32,127 nt of DNA, from assembly GCA_902766835.1 (NCBI GenBank), contig CACXFC010000036.1, positions 1 through 32,127 on the forward strand, written 5' to 3'. A model generated the notes under the pieces. It ran no database searches. It saw only the letters and a list, made by a program, of their open reading frames with translations, and was not told the origin of the DNA. This document shows, in pieces, positions 16,921-29,894 of the stretch. Position numbers and translations under genes: made by a program. Within the stretch, counting starts at the first letter, position 1; every line of letters begins with the position of its first letter. This DNA is from an uncultured Coriobacteriaceae bacterium (GTDB taxonomy: Bacteria > Actinomycetota > Coriobacteriia > Coriobacteriales > Atopobiaceae).

Positions 16921-17228
16921 GGGATGCCTCCTCAGTAGACTACTCGGCTTGCTGTTAGCGAGATTCCAGCATAGCGCGCCATGCGGACAATTTCATCGTC
17001 CTCGGTACATTCGCTCGGGCAGAGGGCTGTGTGGTGCACTGTCGCGCGGCCGCAATTCTGCCGGCAACTAAGGGACACGCCCTTTTTTGCCCCGCGGGGC
17101 AAAAAAGGGCGTGTCCCTTAATTGCCCCGTGTATACCCCCCGCGCATGTCGAGACTTTGTGCCCGGTGCGTGGGATGCTGCGGATGCGGCACAATAGAGC
17201 AAAGGTCGCGGCGGCACTAGGGAGGGGC
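16921..17228. other. 308-bp divergent intergenic region
   Basis: This region lies between the divergent DJ-1-like and ABC ATPase genes. It contains palindromic repeat copy 3 (17063-17126), a possible minus-strand -10 hexamer (16968-16973) and an AT-poor stretch before the ATPase. I see no RNA gene and no credible small ORF. Confidence 0.6.
17063..17126. repeat. Palindromic repeat copy 3, full length
   Basis: A 64-bp inverted repeat with no spacer is centred between 17094 and 17095, with one mismatched pair (C at 17068 against A at 17121). Its order from the outside is GGCAACTAAGGGACACG, CCCTTTTTTG, CCCCG and the mirror image. Unlike the other copies it lies upstream of both flanking genes rather than just after a stop codon. 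Confidence 0.93.
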
Positions 17229-17936: not shown

Positions 17937-20900
17937 GTGGGGCGCAGCGCGTTCATAAAGGACATCGTCCGCAGCATCCGCGGCTCCATGGGGCGCTTTC
18001 TGGCCATCATGGGCATCGTGGCTCTGGGCTGCGGCTTCTATGCGGGCCTCCAGATGTGCGGCCCCAACATGCGTGCCGACGCCGATGCGCTCTACGACGG
18101 CACGAACCTCTGGGACCTGCGCCTCATCTCCACACTGGGCTTTGGCGACGCCGACGTGGCGCGCATCAAGGCCGTTGAGGGCGTGGACCAGGTCATGCCG
18201 TCGCTCACCTGCGACGCAATGGCCCGGCTGGGAAGCGAGCAGGTGGCCGTGCGCATCTCCTCTCTCGACCCCGCCCAGGCCGAGGGCTCGCGCGCCGAGG
18301 GGCTCTACGTGGTGGCATCAGACGATCCCGCCTACCTCAACCGGCCGCGCCTGGTGGAGGGCAACTGGCCCCGCAAGAAGGGCGAATGCGTTATCAGCGC
18401 AGACGTCCCGCGCGAGAACTGCGGGATTGGCGACACCATCGAGCTTCTGTATGGCACCAGCGACCTTTCCAGCCTGCTTTGCGTGAGCAAGCTCGTGGTG
18501 GTGGGCACGGTTAGCTCGTCGAACTACCCCTACACGGGCAGCTTCGGTTCTACTACCTTGGGCTCGGGCATGATCGACCAGTACCTGTTCGTGGCGCCTG
18601 CTTCCTTGGCGGAGGACGCCCCCTTCACCGAGGTCTACCTCACCGTTGCGGGGGCGGCCGAGCAGCTGAGCGAGTCGGACGAGTACGAGCAGGTGGTGGG
18701 CGCCACCAAGAGCCGCCTCGAGGGCCTGCAGGACGAGTTTGCCCGCGAGCGACAGGCGGACCTCAAGCGCGAGGCGCAGGACAAGCTCGACGAGAAGTGG
18801 GATGAGTATTACACGGAGAAGGAGAAGGCCGACCGGGAGCTGGCCGACGCCAAGAAAGAGCTCGAGGACGGCGCGGCGAAGATTGCCGACGGCGAGCAGG
18901 AGCTGGCAGACGGCGAGGCCGAGTATGCCGACGGCGTGGCCGAGTATGAGCGGAAGAAGGCGGACGCCCTGCGCCAGCTCGATGATGCCGAAGCCGAGAT
19001 CGATCGCAACCAGAGCCTGCTCAACCAAAAGCGTGCCGAGGCCGAAAGTGGGGCTCGACAGCTCGACGAGGAAGAAAAGAAGCTGAATGAGGCTGAGGCG
19101 CAGCTGGGCATGACGCAGGCGGACATCGATGCCGCGGCTGCGGAGTTGGCGCAGGGCGAGGAACAATGGAACGCACAGCGCGAACCGCTGGCCACGGCAG
19201 ACGAGTGCCTGACCACCTGCATTGACGCCGTGGCATCGGTGTCAGAGTTGGCGCAGACAGACGGCACGCCTTCCCAAGAGGAGGTCATGACCTGTGTGAA
19301 CGAGGTCCACGAGGCTGTCGATGCAGCTCAGACCCTCATGGGGCTTGGTCTCTTCGAGATAGAGGACCAGGCGGCGGCAGCCCAGCTGCAGGGGGTTCTT
19401 GCCATGGTGCAGGGCATCCTTGCCAGGGTCGAGAGCGGCGACGGCGCTGCGCTCGAGCAGGCGCTTGCCCAGCTGAAGAGCGTGGACCCCGCCACGTTTG
19501 AGCAGGCGATGGCTGCGGCGTCGGGAGCGCGCGACCAGGTGGAGGCGGGCATCGCCCAGGGCGATGCTGCCATGGTGGACGCGCGCGACAAGCTTGCCCA
19601 GGCGCAGGCCGCGCGCGCCCAGATAGATGCCGGGCGGGCGGAGGTGGAGCAGGGTCGCCGGCAGCTGGTTGAGGGCGCGGCTCAGATGGACGAGGGCCAG
19701 CGCCAGATTGATGCCGGTCGAAGGCAGCTGCAGGAGGGTCGCGCGACGGCCGATCGCGAGCTGCGGGACGCACAGGCACAGCTCGACGAGGCTGCGGCCA
19801 AGCTGGAGGAGGGCCGCGCCGAGCTCCGTGACGCGCGCATCGAATACGCCGACGGCCTGCGCTCCTACGAGGAGGGCAAGGCCGAGGCGGACGAGAAGTT
19901 TGGCGACGCCTTGGCGCAGCTGCAGGATGCGCAGAAGGAGATCGACGAAATCGAGCTGCCCGACATCTATGCGCTCGACCGCACCCAGAGCGAGGGCGCG
20001 GCCACCTATCACGCTGACGCGGGTCGCATCGACGCCATCGCCGACGTCTTCCCCTTCATCTTCTTCCTGGTGGCGGCGCTGGTGTCGCTGACCACCATGA
20101 CGCGCATGGTCGAGGATGACCGCGTGCTCATCGGCACATACAAGGCGCTGGGCTACGGCACGGCTGCCATTGCGGCGAAGTACCTCGTCTATGCGGGCAT
20201 CGCCGGTGTGGTGGGCGCCACCGTGGGCATCGTGGCACTCTCGCAGGTCCTGCCCTTCATCGTGATGAGCGCCTATTCCATCATCTACACGGTGCCAATC
20301 CATCCCTTCCCGCTGCCCATCTACCCCTCCATCGCGCTGGCCGCAGGAGGCTTGGGCGTGGGGGTGTGCCTGCTGGCCACATGGGGCGCCGTGGTGTCGA
20401 GCCTGCGCGAGGTGCCGGCGACCCTCATGCTGCCGCGCGCCCCCAAGGCGGGCAAGCGCATCCTGCTGGAGCGCGTGACGCCGGTGTGGAGCCGCCTCTC
20501 CTTCACCTGGAAGGTGACCTTCCGCAACCTCTTCCGCTACAAGCGCCGCTTCCTGATGACGGTAATCGGCATATCGGGCTGCACGGCGCTGCTGTTGGTG
20601 GGCTTTGGCCTGCACGATGCCATCTGGGACATCATCGACCGCCAGTACGGGCCCATCATCCACTTCGACACCACGGTGGGCCTTGACGACAACGCCATCG
20701 AGCTGGACGTGCGGCGCGTGAGCGACTACCTGGAGCGGACCGGCGAGGTCAGCGGCATCGTGCGCGTGCAGAACGAGAACATGCAGGCGGGCGCGCAGGG
20801 CTTTGACGAGACCATCCGCGTGAACGTGGTGGTGCCGCGCGACGTGAGGCAGATGGCCGGGGCCATCACCTTCAAGAACCGCCTGACGGGCGAGGCGCTC

Positions 20901-21662
20901 GCCTTTGACGACGACTCCGTTCTGGTTACCGAGAAGCTTGCCATGAAGTACGGACTTTCTGCGGGCGATGCTATAACGCTCTTCGACCAGGACGAGGTGG
21001 GCAATGCCGTGGGCGACGGGCACCAGCTGGTCATAACCGGCGTGGCCGAAAACTACGTGGGCAACCTCGTGTACGTGGGCCGCAACGCCTGGAGGAGCGT
21101 GAGCACGCGCCAGCCGGTCTTCTCGACCATCTATGCCTCGACGACGCCCGACGAGAAGGTGCGCGCCTCCATAGCCGAGGAGCTCCACGACATGGAGGAC
21201 GTCTCAACGGTCATCTTCTCGGACGAGACCATCAACATGTACCGCAAGATGCTCTCGGTGGTTGACATGATCGTGGTGGTGCTGATCGTGAGTGCGGCGG
21301 CGCTGGCCTACATCGTGCTGTACAACCTCACCAACATCAACATCGGCGAGCGCATCCGCGAGATTGCGAGCCTGAAGGTGCTGGGCTTCACCCGCATGGA
21401 GGTTTACACCTACATCTTCCGCGAGATTGGCCTTCTGGCCGTGATGGGCGATGTGGTGGGCATGGTGCTGGGCATCTTCCTGGAGCGCTTCGTGGTCACC
21501 ACGGCCGAGGTCGACTATGTCATGTTTGGGCGCAGCATCCACGCTCCGAGCTTTGCCTACGCCTTTGCGCTCACGCTGGTGTTCACGGCGCTGGTCATTG
21601 CATCGATGCGGCGCAAGCTCGACCGCGTCGACATGGTGGAGTCGCTCAAGAGCATCGACTAG
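17937..21662 (+). CDS. FtsX-type ABC permease with large extracellular coiled coil
   Basis: This 1241-residue permease partners the ATPase just upstream. TM1 is at about 20-42. An extracellular region follows whose middle (about 255-680) is an almost continuous coiled coil. Two stretches repeat a glycine-bearing heptad, for example KIADGEQELADGEAEYADG and later LVEGAAQMDEGQRQIDAG. The first FtsX domain (three TM segments) is at about 700-820. A fourth TM (about 870-890) opens a second extracellular domain, and the last FtsX domain (about 1100-1234) ends RVDMVESLKSID. This is the duplicated FtsX plan of type VII ABC systems. The substrate is unknown; an envelope or export role is inferred. The start is GTG with TAGGA upstream. 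Confidence 0.9.
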   Translation: MGRSAFIKDIVRSIRGSMGRFLAIMGIVALGCGFYAGLQMCGPNMRADADALYDGTNLWDLRLISTLGFGDADVARIKAVEGVDQVMPSLTCDAMARLGSEQVAVRISSLDPAQAEGSRAEGLYVVASDDPAYLNRPRLVEGNWPRKKGECVISADVPRENCGIGDTIELLYGTSDLSSLLCVSKLVVVGTVSSSNYPYTGSFGSTTLGSGMIDQYLFVAPASLAEDAPFTEVYLTVAGAAEQLSESDEYEQVVGATKSRLEGLQDEFARERQADLKREAQDKLDEKWDEYYTEKEKADRELADAKKELEDGAAKIADGEQELADGEAEYADGVAEYERKKADALRQLDDAEAEIDRNQSLLNQKRAEAESGARQLDEEEKKLNEAEAQLGMTQADIDAAAAELAQGEEQWNAQREPLATADECLTTCIDAVASVSELAQTDGTPSQEEVMTCVNEVHEAVDAAQTLMGLGLFEIEDQAAAAQLQGVLAMVQGILARVESGDGAALEQALAQLKSVDPATFEQAMAAASGARDQVEAGIAQGDAAMVDARDKLAQAQAARAQIDAGRAEVEQGRRQLVEGAAQMDEGQRQIDAGRRQLQEGRATADRELRDAQAQLDEAAAKLEEGRAELRDARIEYADGLRSYEEGKAEADEKFGDALAQLQDAQKEIDEIELPDIYALDRTQSEGAATYHADAGRIDAIADVFPFIFFLVAALVSLTTMTRMVEDDRVLIGTYKALGYGTAAIAAKYLVYAGIAGVVGATVGIVALSQVLPFIVMSAYSIIYTVPIHPFPLPIYPSIALAAGGLGVGVCLLATWGAVVSSLREVPATLMLPRAPKAGKRILLERVTPVWSRLSFTWKVTFRNLFRYKRRFLMTVIGISGCTALLLVGFGLHDAIWDIIDRQYGPIIHFDTTVGLDDNAIELDVRRVSDYLERTGEVSGIVRVQNENMQAGAQGFDETIRVNVVVPRDVRQMAGAITFKNRLTGEALAFDDDSVLVTEKLAMKYGLSAGDAITLFDQDEVGNAVGDGHQLVITGVAENYVGNLVYVGRNAWRSVSTRQPVFSTIYASTTPDEKVRASIAEELHDMEDVSTVIFSDETINMYRKMLSVVDMIVVVLIVSAAALAYIVLYNLTNINIGERIREIASLKVLGFTRMEVYTYIFREIGLLAVMGDVVGMVLGIFLERFVVTTAEVDYVMFGRSIHAPSFAYAFALTLVFTALVIASMRRKLDRVDMVESLKSID

Positions 21663-21711: not shown

Positions 21712-22401
21712 TTGGCGTTGGGTGAGGCATACGCATACGTGCTGGCAGCTGTTTTGGGCCTGGGTGCCGGATGGCTTGCGCGCCTGTGGGCTGCCCGCCT
21801 CGTGGGCAGCGAGGTGCGTGCCGCGCGGGTGCTTGGTCCTGCCTGTGGCGCACTGGCGTGGGCGCTCATCGTGTGCGTGCGCGGGCCGGGGCTGGAGAGT
21901 TGCTTCCAGTGCCTTGTGTGCATACCGCTTCTGGCCTGCTCGCTCACCGACCTTGCGGCGTATGTCATCCCCAATGCGTGCGTGGCGTGCGCCGCCTCCG
22001 TGCGCGCGGCTTATCTGCTCGCGGTGGGCCTCTGCGACTCTGCCCAGCTGCCTGCGCTGCTGGCTCGCTCGCTGGCGGGGGCCGCAGGTACGCTTGTCCC
22101 GATGCTGGCGCTCACACTGGTCATGGACCGCGTCTTGGGGACCGACAGCATGGGCGGGGGAGACCTCAAGCTTCTGGCGGTCTGCGGGCTTTGGGTGGGC
22201 CTGCGCCAGATGCTGTTCCTGCTGCCTGTGGCGTGTGTGGGCGGCATCCTAAGCTCGGTGATGCTCACGCGCGCGCAGGACGGCCCGTCCTCGGTCGCGC
22301 TTTCGCCCTTCCCCTTTGGACCCTCCATCGCGCTGGCCCTTCTGGTCACCTTTCTGGTTGGGCCCCATGTGGAAGCATGGTTGGCGGCATGGGTCTTCTG
22401 A
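21712..22401 (+). CDS. A24-type prepilin peptidase, methylase domain absent
   Basis: This polytopic protein of about 229 residues has both aspartates of the A24 (type IV prepilin peptidase) family: SLTDLAAYVIPN, with Asp80 seven residues before the Pro, and GGGDLKLLAVCG (Asp151 in the G-x-G-D-x-K motif). It lacks the cysteine-bearing N-terminal methylase domain, like TadV/CpaA-type peptidases. It should cut leader peptides from pilin-like proteins at the membrane. The start is uncertain: I choose TTG 21712 because AAGGGG lies about 10 bases before it; GTG 21673 and GTG 21739 are alternatives. It follows the permease gene by 49 bases and precedes a second family member. Confidence 0.78.
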   Translation: MALGEAYAYVLAAVLGLGAGWLARLWAARLVGSEVRAARVLGPACGALAWALIVCVRGPGLESCFQCLVCIPLLACSLTDLAAYVIPNACVACAASVRAAYLLAVGLCDSAQLPALLARSLAGAAGTLVPMLALTLVMDRVLGTDSMGGGDLKLLAVCGLWVGLRQMLFLLPVACVGGILSSVMLTRAQDGPSSVALSPFPFGPSIALALLVTFLVGPHVEAWLAAWVF

Positions 22402-22467
22402 GATGTTGTGAGGACGAAGGTGGCCTAATACGCTATCGTAGATGGGTACCGCGAGAGATGGGAAGTC

Positions 22468-23391
22468 ATGCCAATCGCACACCGCATCGTATTCTATGAG
22501 TCTTTGCCGCTTACCTTAGCCGTCTGCCTGGGGGCGATGGTGGCAGGTATGGTGGCTGGCTCCATCATTCATGGGGTGGCGTGGCGCATTACCCATGGGC
22601 GAACCGCCTTTGACGGCGGCCCGTCGTGCCGCGCGTGCGGGCAGGGTTTTACCCTGCGCGAGTCGATTCCTGTCATCAGCTGGCTGTCCATGAAGGGAAT
22701 CTGCCCCTACTGCGGCGAGCCGCTGGGCATGGACAAGCCCCTCTGCGAGCTGCTGGGCGGCGGAATCTTCGTGAGTGTGGTGCTGCGCTACGCAATCTCG
22801 TTGCAGACCCTGGAGGTTCTGGCGGCGGTGTGCGTGCTGATGACCATTGCCCTGGCATCTCTGTGGGACTATCACATCCCCAACGGCTGCATCGCCTGTG
22901 CGGTGGCCATCAGGCTGCTGTACCTGGCGACCTCTGCGATGATGGGCGAGGACATGCTTCCTTTGGCCATAGCCTCGGTGGTTGGCGCCGTGGCGCTGAG
23001 CGTTCCCTTCGCGCTGGCGGTGTTTTTGAGCAGCGCCATGCTCGCGCGTGACATCACGGGCATGGGAACCGTCAAGCTCGTGGCCATCGTGGGCCTGTAT
23101 CTGGGCTGGCAGCAGGGCCTCATTGCCATGGCCTGTGCCACGGCCCTCCTGCTGCTGGTGTGGATCTTGAGCCCCACGAAGCTGCTGAATGTTGAGGTGG
23201 CGGGCGGTGCGCACCGCAACGGCGAAGACGACGACTACATGCCCTCGCCGCGCGAGATGACCGCCACGCTCGAGGAGGACATCTGTGAGCCCATCCGCCT
23301 CATTCCCTTCACGCCGGCCATCGTGCTTGCCCTGTGGGGCGTGATGCTGGTGGGAGTCACCCCCAGTGTGTGGAACGCCCCCATTTTCTAA
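22468..23391 (+). CDS. Prepilin peptidase-like protein with N-methylase domain, peptidase site altered
   Basis: This 307-residue membrane protein has the classic PilD layout: a TM, then the N-terminal domain with two CxxC pairs (Cys54, 57, 79, 82) around ESIPVISWLSMKG, then the A24 membrane domain. The second catalytic motif, normally G-x-G-D-x-K, reads GMGTVKLVAIVG, with Thr201 in place of Asp. In the first motif (SLWDYHIPN) the position seven residues before Pro is Ser131, although an Asp lies four residues before it. The peptidase is therefore probably inactive while the methylase part looks intact. The gene directly upstream has the converse pattern. A hydrophilic segment (about 240-275) precedes the last TM. 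GGGAAG lies before the ATG. Confidence 0.82.
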   Translation: MPIAHRIVFYESLPLTLAVCLGAMVAGMVAGSIIHGVAWRITHGRTAFDGGPSCRACGQGFTLRESIPVISWLSMKGICPYCGEPLGMDKPLCELLGGGIFVSVVLRYAISLQTLEVLAAVCVLMTIALASLWDYHIPNGCIACAVAIRLLYLATSAMMGEDMLPLAIASVVGAVALSVPFALAVFLSSAMLARDITGMGTVKLVAIVGLYLGWQQGLIAMACATALLLLVWILSPTKLLNVEVAGGAHRNGEDDDYMPSPREMTATLEEDICEPIRLIPFTPAIVLALWGVMLVGVTPSVWNAPIF

Positions 23392-23406: not shown

Positions 23407-23474
23407 GGGGCAATTAGGGGACACGCCCTTTTTTGCCCCGCGGGGCAAAAAAGGGCGTGTCCCCTAATTGCCCC
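23407..23474. repeat. Palindromic repeat copy 4, perfect 68-bp palindrome
   Basis: All 34 pairs match with no spacer, centred between 23440 and 23441. Outer arm GGGGCAATTAGGGG, then ACACGCCC, T6, GCCCCG and the mirror image. It begins 16 bases after the stop of the second prepilin peptidase-like gene. Its arms read AGGGG where other copies have AAGGG, with the matching change on both sides. Confidence 0.95.
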
Positions 23475-27398: not shown

Positions 27399-27463
27399 GG
27401 AAATTAAGGGACACGCCCTTTTTTGCCCCGCGGGGCAAAAAAAGGGCGTGTCCCTTAATTTCC
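27399..27463. repeat. Palindromic repeat copy 5, one-base bulge
   Basis: This full palindrome has GGAAATTAAGGG outer arms, starting 19 bases after the queH stop. The right arm has seven A against six T on the left, so it is one base out of perfect symmetry. All other pairs match. Confidence 0.92.
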
Positions 27464-27476
27464 TTGCCCTCCGCGT

Positions 27477-27498
27477 GGGCGTGTCCCCCAATTGTCCC
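27477..27498. repeat. Half copy of the palindromic repeat (right arm)
   Basis: GGGCGTGTCCCCCAATTGTC matches the right arm of the 23407 copy (GGGCGTGTCCCCTAATTGCC) except for two changes. The left arm and centre are missing. It lies 14 bases after the end of copy 5 and just before the queA upstream region. Confidence 0.65.
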
Positions 27499-29828: not shown

Positions 29829-29894
29829 TGGAAATTAAGGGACACGCCCTTTTTTGCCCCGCGGGGCAAAAAAGGGCGTGTCCCTTAATCTCCA
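29829..29894. repeat. Palindromic repeat copy 6, full length
   Basis: A 66-bp spacerless inverted repeat with a single mismatch (A 29833 against C 29890) is centred between 29861 and 29862. Its outer arms are TGGAAATTAAGGG. It begins seven bases after the VanY-like stop and ends 15 bases before the bidirectional terminator. Confidence 0.93.

Follow-up and report, generated by a model that had tools for sequence, protein, structure and literature searches.

Prepilin peptidases of the PilD/PulO/ComC family (MEROPS A24A) carry the catalytic aspartates and the zinc domain in a single chain. Zinc is required for methylation by PilD and not for cleavage (PMC3584216); a Gly and a basic residue next to the third Cys are methylation determinants, the basic residue contributing to PilD methylation, according to Pepe and Lory (1998) as cited in PMC3584216. 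TadV-type peptidases without the methylase domain are also known (PMC10191384), and in Myxococcus a short peptidase serves a subset of pilins (PMC12075869). No report of the methylation of Tad pilins was found in the literature searched, and the open-licence literature searched yielded neither a peptidase-dead PilD paralogue or pseudo-prepilin-peptidase nor an Asp-less partner of a TadV/FppA-type peptidase.

At the locus described here, the two residue sets that PilD holds in one chain are spread over two genes, neither of which has both. The genes, ORF-A and ORF-B, are adjacent and run in the same direction within the window, by which we mean the whole 32,127-nucleotide stretch of DNA that was analysed (contig C36 of a 2.56-Mb draft genome in 291 contigs). 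Their features are as follows.

21712..22401, + strand: ORF-A, an A24 prepilin peptidase of 229 aa with a TTG start and no zinc (methylase) loop, predicted to be active.
21949..21951, + strand: ORF-A Asp1 codon (D80, SLTDLAAYVIPN), from the translation; invariant in alignment A3.
22162..22164, + strand: ORF-A Asp2 codon (D151, GGGDLK), from the translation; invariant in alignment A3.
22468..23391, + strand: ORF-B, a putatively PilD-derived protein of 307 aa with an ATG start, an A24_N zinc domain and a peptidase site predicted to be dead.
22627..22713, + strand: ORF-B zinc-type motif C54-x2-C57-x21-C79-x2-C82; the four Cys are invariant in 10 species.
22858..22860, + strand: ORF-B Ser131, at the Asp1 position; S, T or A in orthologues, never D.
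23068..23070, + strand: ORF-B Thr201, at the Asp2 (GxGD) position; invariant in 10 species.
23170..23307, + strand: ORF-B-specific loop, residues 235-280 (SPxKLxxVEVxGG...EEDxxEPxR), conserved across ORF-Bs.

The TTG start of ORF-A at 21712 has a Shine-Dalgarno-like stretch, GGAAGGGG, about 10 nt upstream. ORF-A matches PF01478 (Peptidase_A24) at 43.1 bits (cut-off 26.5) and does not match PF06750; in a profile search of the 291-contig draft it is the sole intact A24 match. ORF-B matches PF06750 (A24_N) at 59.6 bits (cut-off 23), and PF01478 finds no match when ORF-B is scanned on its own. Its motifs read IALASLWDYHIPN, with Ser at Asp1, and TGMGTVK, with Thr at Asp2. A promoter and terminator scan between the two genes returned nothing above chance. 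A preliminary description of this DNA had given both A24 aspartates and no methylase domain to the first protein, and four cysteines, Ser at the first Asp position and Thr in GMGTVK to the second; the residues lie where it placed them. It had also remarked that no pilin genes are adjacent, and none are; the neighbours are of the FtsX and PcsB types.

With ORF-B as the query, a search for relatives across 197 genomes of the order gave mostly single-chain PilDs (zinc loop, four Cys, both Asp) together with short A24 proteins. A set of 44 zinc-loop-bearing relatives from outside the genus was then compared column by column; all 44 are single-chain bifunctional PilDs with Asp at both Asp1 and Asp2. 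ORF-B has TM1, the four Cys and the membrane layout in common with PilD/PulO/ComC and groups with the order's PilDs, while ORF-A has TM1 and the Asp motifs in common with them. In the alignment, ORF-A keeps the PilD TM1 (G..G......A.R) and only the zinc loop is deleted; on this comparison it is a PilD that has lost its zinc loop and not a bare TadV. It resembles TadV/FppA in combining the aspartates with the lack of a zinc domain, and its genome has a tad locus devoid of tadV; it differs from them in lying away from the tad locus, in retaining the PilD TM1 and in having a conserved Asp-less partner.

In the first tree, the ORF-Bs come out together with a support of 100, and their clade lies within the bifunctional PilDs. 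A common clade of ORF-A and ORF-B is not rejected (p-AU 0.485), so that a tandem duplication with complementary loss and the recruitment of a second PilD are both compatible with the data. A single A24 gene is found in most of the family's other genomes, and in three relatives (L176-L178) PilD lies inside or close to a T4a pilus operon with classical prepilins (KGFTLMELLIVVAIIAVL) and with PilC/PilT- and PilM/N/O-like genes, the PilM/N/O names being taken from a reading of the sequence. The zinc loop is also lost or remodelled in PilDs of other Atopobiaceae, namely at L174 (G233), L033/L170 (G194, G231) and L023 (G088). For the loop-less protein of G233 the sister sequence (97) is a full-length PilD from its own genus, and the losses in those lineages are apparently independent of the one in ORF-A.

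ORF-B is carried by 10 species of one Atopobiaceae genus, the nine others being at 55-62% identity; the records that bear names are Atopobiaceae assemblies from the rumen and gut. Every one of the ten orthologues matches PF06750. Thr201, whose conservation the preliminary description had singled out for checking, is invariant across them along with the four Cys, and Asp1 is occupied by S, T or A. The alignment, drawn from ten independent assemblies and full-length throughout, has 78 invariant positions among 301 shared columns. Given that the replacements recur in nine further species of the genus, they are more than chance. Both Asp are intact in the ORF-A-type genes of all 17 genus members.

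ORF-A and ORF-B lie side by side in 8 of the 10 species, and the gene order in most ORF-B-bearing species is ABC-FtsX-A-B-PcsB. The contig of G200 ends beside ORF-B. The intact A24 gene of G206 lies apart from ORF-B, which counts against a split of functions between the two genes, as does the occurrence of a short A24 gene without ORF-B in eight species of the genus; pcsB directly follows ORF-A in five of these eight.

Two further observations concern the surroundings of the pair. Upstream, at 17937-21662, the window encodes an FtsX-type permease of 1241 aa, which contains a long insert of coiled-coil-like character and is paired with an ABC ATPase; across the genus this arrangement is conserved upstream of A and B. 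After ORF-B, at 23407-23474, there is a perfect 34+34-nt palindrome (AATTAGGGGACACGCCC...), copies of which also occur at 17066-17123, 27402-27493, 29833-29890 and 1562-1578. Its half-site has ten matches in the window as against none expected by chance, and it is a dispersed intergenic palindromic repeat.

In the closest trio of species (G205, G209 and G213), dN/dS for ORF-B is 0.095-0.174 over the three pairs, and for ORF-A in the same pairs it is 0.20-0.26. Mean pairwise identity among the eight species with both genes is 0.59 for ORF-B versus 0.44 for ORF-A. Thus, constraint is stronger on the peptidase-dead member of the pair, which is not decaying. By these estimates ORF-B is under strong purifying selection, even though its peptidase site is dead, by its residues, in all ten species.

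The preliminary description proposed to look for pilin genes elsewhere in the genome, and they are present: contig C81 carries a complete tad locus (RcpC, TadZ, TadA, TadB, TadC, Flp and a TadE-like protein) in which no A24 gene was found. The genome thereby appears to encode cleavable prepilins of the Flp and TadE-like kinds. In nearly all species, with or without ORF-B, the tad locus lacks tadV and its Flp carries the motif G/QGTTEYAILVG. ORF-A sits apart from the tad genes, on C36 between ftsX and ORF-B. Since the genome has no other intact A24 gene and the C81 tad locus has none, ORF-A most likely serves the Tad pilins in trans. No other significant pilus-type ATPase besides that of tad was found in six ORF-B species, and classical N-methylated prepilins (PF07963) are missing from 17 of the 18 genomes of the genus. 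Hence, given these two observations and the tad loci without tadV, Tad pilins are the likely substrates. An exception that counts against them is G197, which has the pair and in whose 83%-complete genome no T2SSE ATPase was found.

Other pilus genes were considered as partners of ORF-B. A 6-kb contig of G200 (L196, contig C49) encodes a PilB-type ATPase together with a classical N_methyl prepilin, of which no second example was found in the genus; the contig is possibly contamination, the assembly being 76% complete and 5% contaminated. A role of ORF-B in a resident T4aP system was rejected on account of the 17 genomes without PF07963 prepilins and the possible contamination behind the exception. 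In the present genome, contig C236 (L123, 4771-8761) has a PilT/PilC/DUF4860 pilus-like cluster that contains no peptidase; inspection of its small pilin-like proteins by eye showed no clear class III cleavage motif. PilT-type ATPases of this kind occur in six species of the genus. The presence of this locus does not track ORF-B, and a tie between the two was likewise rejected.

The residue pattern, the conservation, the selection, the synteny and the absence of tadV from the tad loci are all read from the sequences themselves, and at that level A and B are a real, conserved complementary pair. We propose that a bifunctional PilD has been split into its two halves, with ORF-A cleaving Tad prepilins and ORF-B acting as its non-cleaving partner, and we give this reading a probability of roughly 0.58. 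ORF-A, as a PilD without the cytoplasmic zinc loop but with both catalytic aspartates, would cleave the leaders of the genome's Flp and TadE-like prepilins, its action on Tad pilins being the presumed part. ORF-B, as a PilD without either catalytic aspartate, would retain the zinc domain along with the membrane scaffold and have gained a conserved loop; it would not cleave, and would instead perform a second step, of a presumed kind, on what are presumably the same substrates as those of ORF-A. Separate cleavage by ORF-A is a well-supported prediction, and the non-cleaving role of ORF-B a supported one. Because ORF-B is strongly conserved though dead for cutting, it probably has a separate job on pilins. 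The preliminary description suggested that cleavage and N-methylation may be divided between the two proteins; the division of catalytic residues between two conserved genes holds, whereas methylation by ORF-B is only a possibility.

The zinc domain of ORF-B was examined at the positions that matter for methylation in PilD. Gly77, near the third Cys, is kept in all ten orthologues. The basic residue before Cys3 is present in none of them, as against R or K in 41 of the 44 bifunctional relatives. The Arg that follows Cys3 is likewise lost in all ten, where 44 of 44 relatives have R or K; F33, N35, D65, L66 and R89 are changed as well. At positions at least 90% conserved in PilDs (29 in the zinc domain and 29 in the peptidase half), nearly all ORF-Bs keep 12 and lose 7 in the zinc domain, and keep 14 and lose 8 in the peptidase half. 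The extra loop is about 47 residues long (44-49 in all ten), and its residues K238, V242, E243, V244 and G246 fall in a gap in 43 of the 44 bifunctional PilDs. Judging from the helix count and a low-confidence model, the loop would face the cytoplasm, on the same side as the zinc loop and the dead site. AlphaFold models built from 10 and 8 sequences had mean pLDDT values of 67.5 and 70.7, and their comparison with the PDB brought up no meaningful match; no PDB chain of a PilD matching by sequence was found.

Outside the genus, a GTDB scan for proteins of the ORF-B type, made with two short exact patterns that may miss other split cases, returned this Atopobiaceae genus and two Planctomycetes proteins and nothing else. 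The two Planctomycetes genomes (G287 and G288; loci L203-L208; L120, 9896-11086) each encode an Asp-less protein of 397 aa with a canonical A24_N domain (112 bits; GSFLNVVIYR, GKCRYC, RYPIVE), Gln at Asp1 and PGT at GxGD. Of its paralogues, one of 366 aa has intact Asp and an eroded zinc domain with the Cys kept, and one of 433 aa has intact Asp and no Cys. No PilD with the complete residue set was found in either genome, and all three proteins are under purifying selection (dN/dS 0.09-0.13). Being close relatives, the two genomes represent one independent instance. This Gimesia-type set resembles the A/B pair in having an Asp-less methylase-domain protein and separate intact-Asp peptidases, but its genes are on different contigs and its methylase domain is canonical, unlike the eroded one of ORF-B.

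What ORF-B does as a non-cleaving partner can be read in two ways, each a sub-case of the preferred reading with a likelihood partly overlapping it, and between methylation and scaffolding alone the sequences leave matters close to even. In a strict division of labour, ORF-B would be an active stand-alone pilin N-methyltransferase that follows ORF-A. The strong selection on the zinc domain and its four Cys, the retention of Gly77, the complementary loss of the loop in ORF-A and the fully canonical methylase domain of the Asp-less Planctomycetes protein all favour this, but the lost residues on either side of Cys3 and the five other changed positions argue against it, as do the lack of classical N-methylated prepilins in 17 of 18 genomes and the fact that Tad pilin methylation is unreported in the literature searched, TadV having no such domain (PMC10191384); we regard it as possible rather than probable. 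Alternatively, and to us just as tentatively, ORF-B would be a pseudoenzyme with neither activity, a membrane scaffold with prepilins, ORF-A or the Tad platform as its binding partners and with a tuning effect on processing. As in bacterial pseudoenzymes in general, its fold and binding shell are kept, its catalytic residues are replaced and its conservation is strong; the losses are similar in both halves (7/29 and 8/29), a conserved loop of its own has been gained, and the constraint exceeds that on ORF-A. The absolute retention of the four Cys and Gly77 speaks against it, together with the complete methylase motif of the Planctomycetes counterpart.

The remaining explanations depart further from a non-cleaving partner of ORF-A. 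ORF-B might have been recruited to a process other than piliation, for instance with the neighbouring FtsX-type exporter or PcsB-like hydrolase, given that these neighbours recur in the species with enough sequence, that G206 has no A24 gene beside ORF-B and that no T2SSE was detected alongside the pair in G197. We consider this unlikely, in that ORF-A adjoins ORF-B in 8 of 10 species and the PilD-type zinc domain is kept; moreover, A24 genes adjoin pcsB in other genera too, and the neighbours may therefore be historical. Cleavage by ORF-B through other acids is very improbable. The preliminary description allowed that Asp134 or Asp195 might occupy the active site, and Asp195, which could stand in for Asp2, is indeed invariant in ORF-B, but its place in the alignment is six residues ahead of Asp2, where the active bifunctional relatives are variable; near Asp1, itself S, T or A, there is no invariant acid, Asp134 being D, E or N in the orthologues. 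Least credible of all is a decaying pseudogene or a sequencing or assembly artefact. The loss of both catalytic residues and the absence of ORF-B from eight related species would fit it, but ten independent full-length assemblies have the same replacements, and the selection test (dN/dS about 0.1-0.17 in close pairs) contradicts it, as do the 78 invariant columns.

Taken together with the Planctomycetes case, the pair raises the somewhat doubtful prospect that methylation and cleavage have been separated at least two times, giving rise to stand-alone peptidase-dead pilin N-methyltransferases in which Thr replaces the Asp of GxGD both times. If ORF-B is instead inactive, it would be a conserved pseudo-prepilin-peptidase, a kind that the literature searched did not contain. 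PilD has its two activities in one chain, whereas in these Atopobiaceae the cutting residues and the zinc domain sit in different genes; and as related species keep or lack ORF-B, its non-cleaving function could be examined apart from cleavage.
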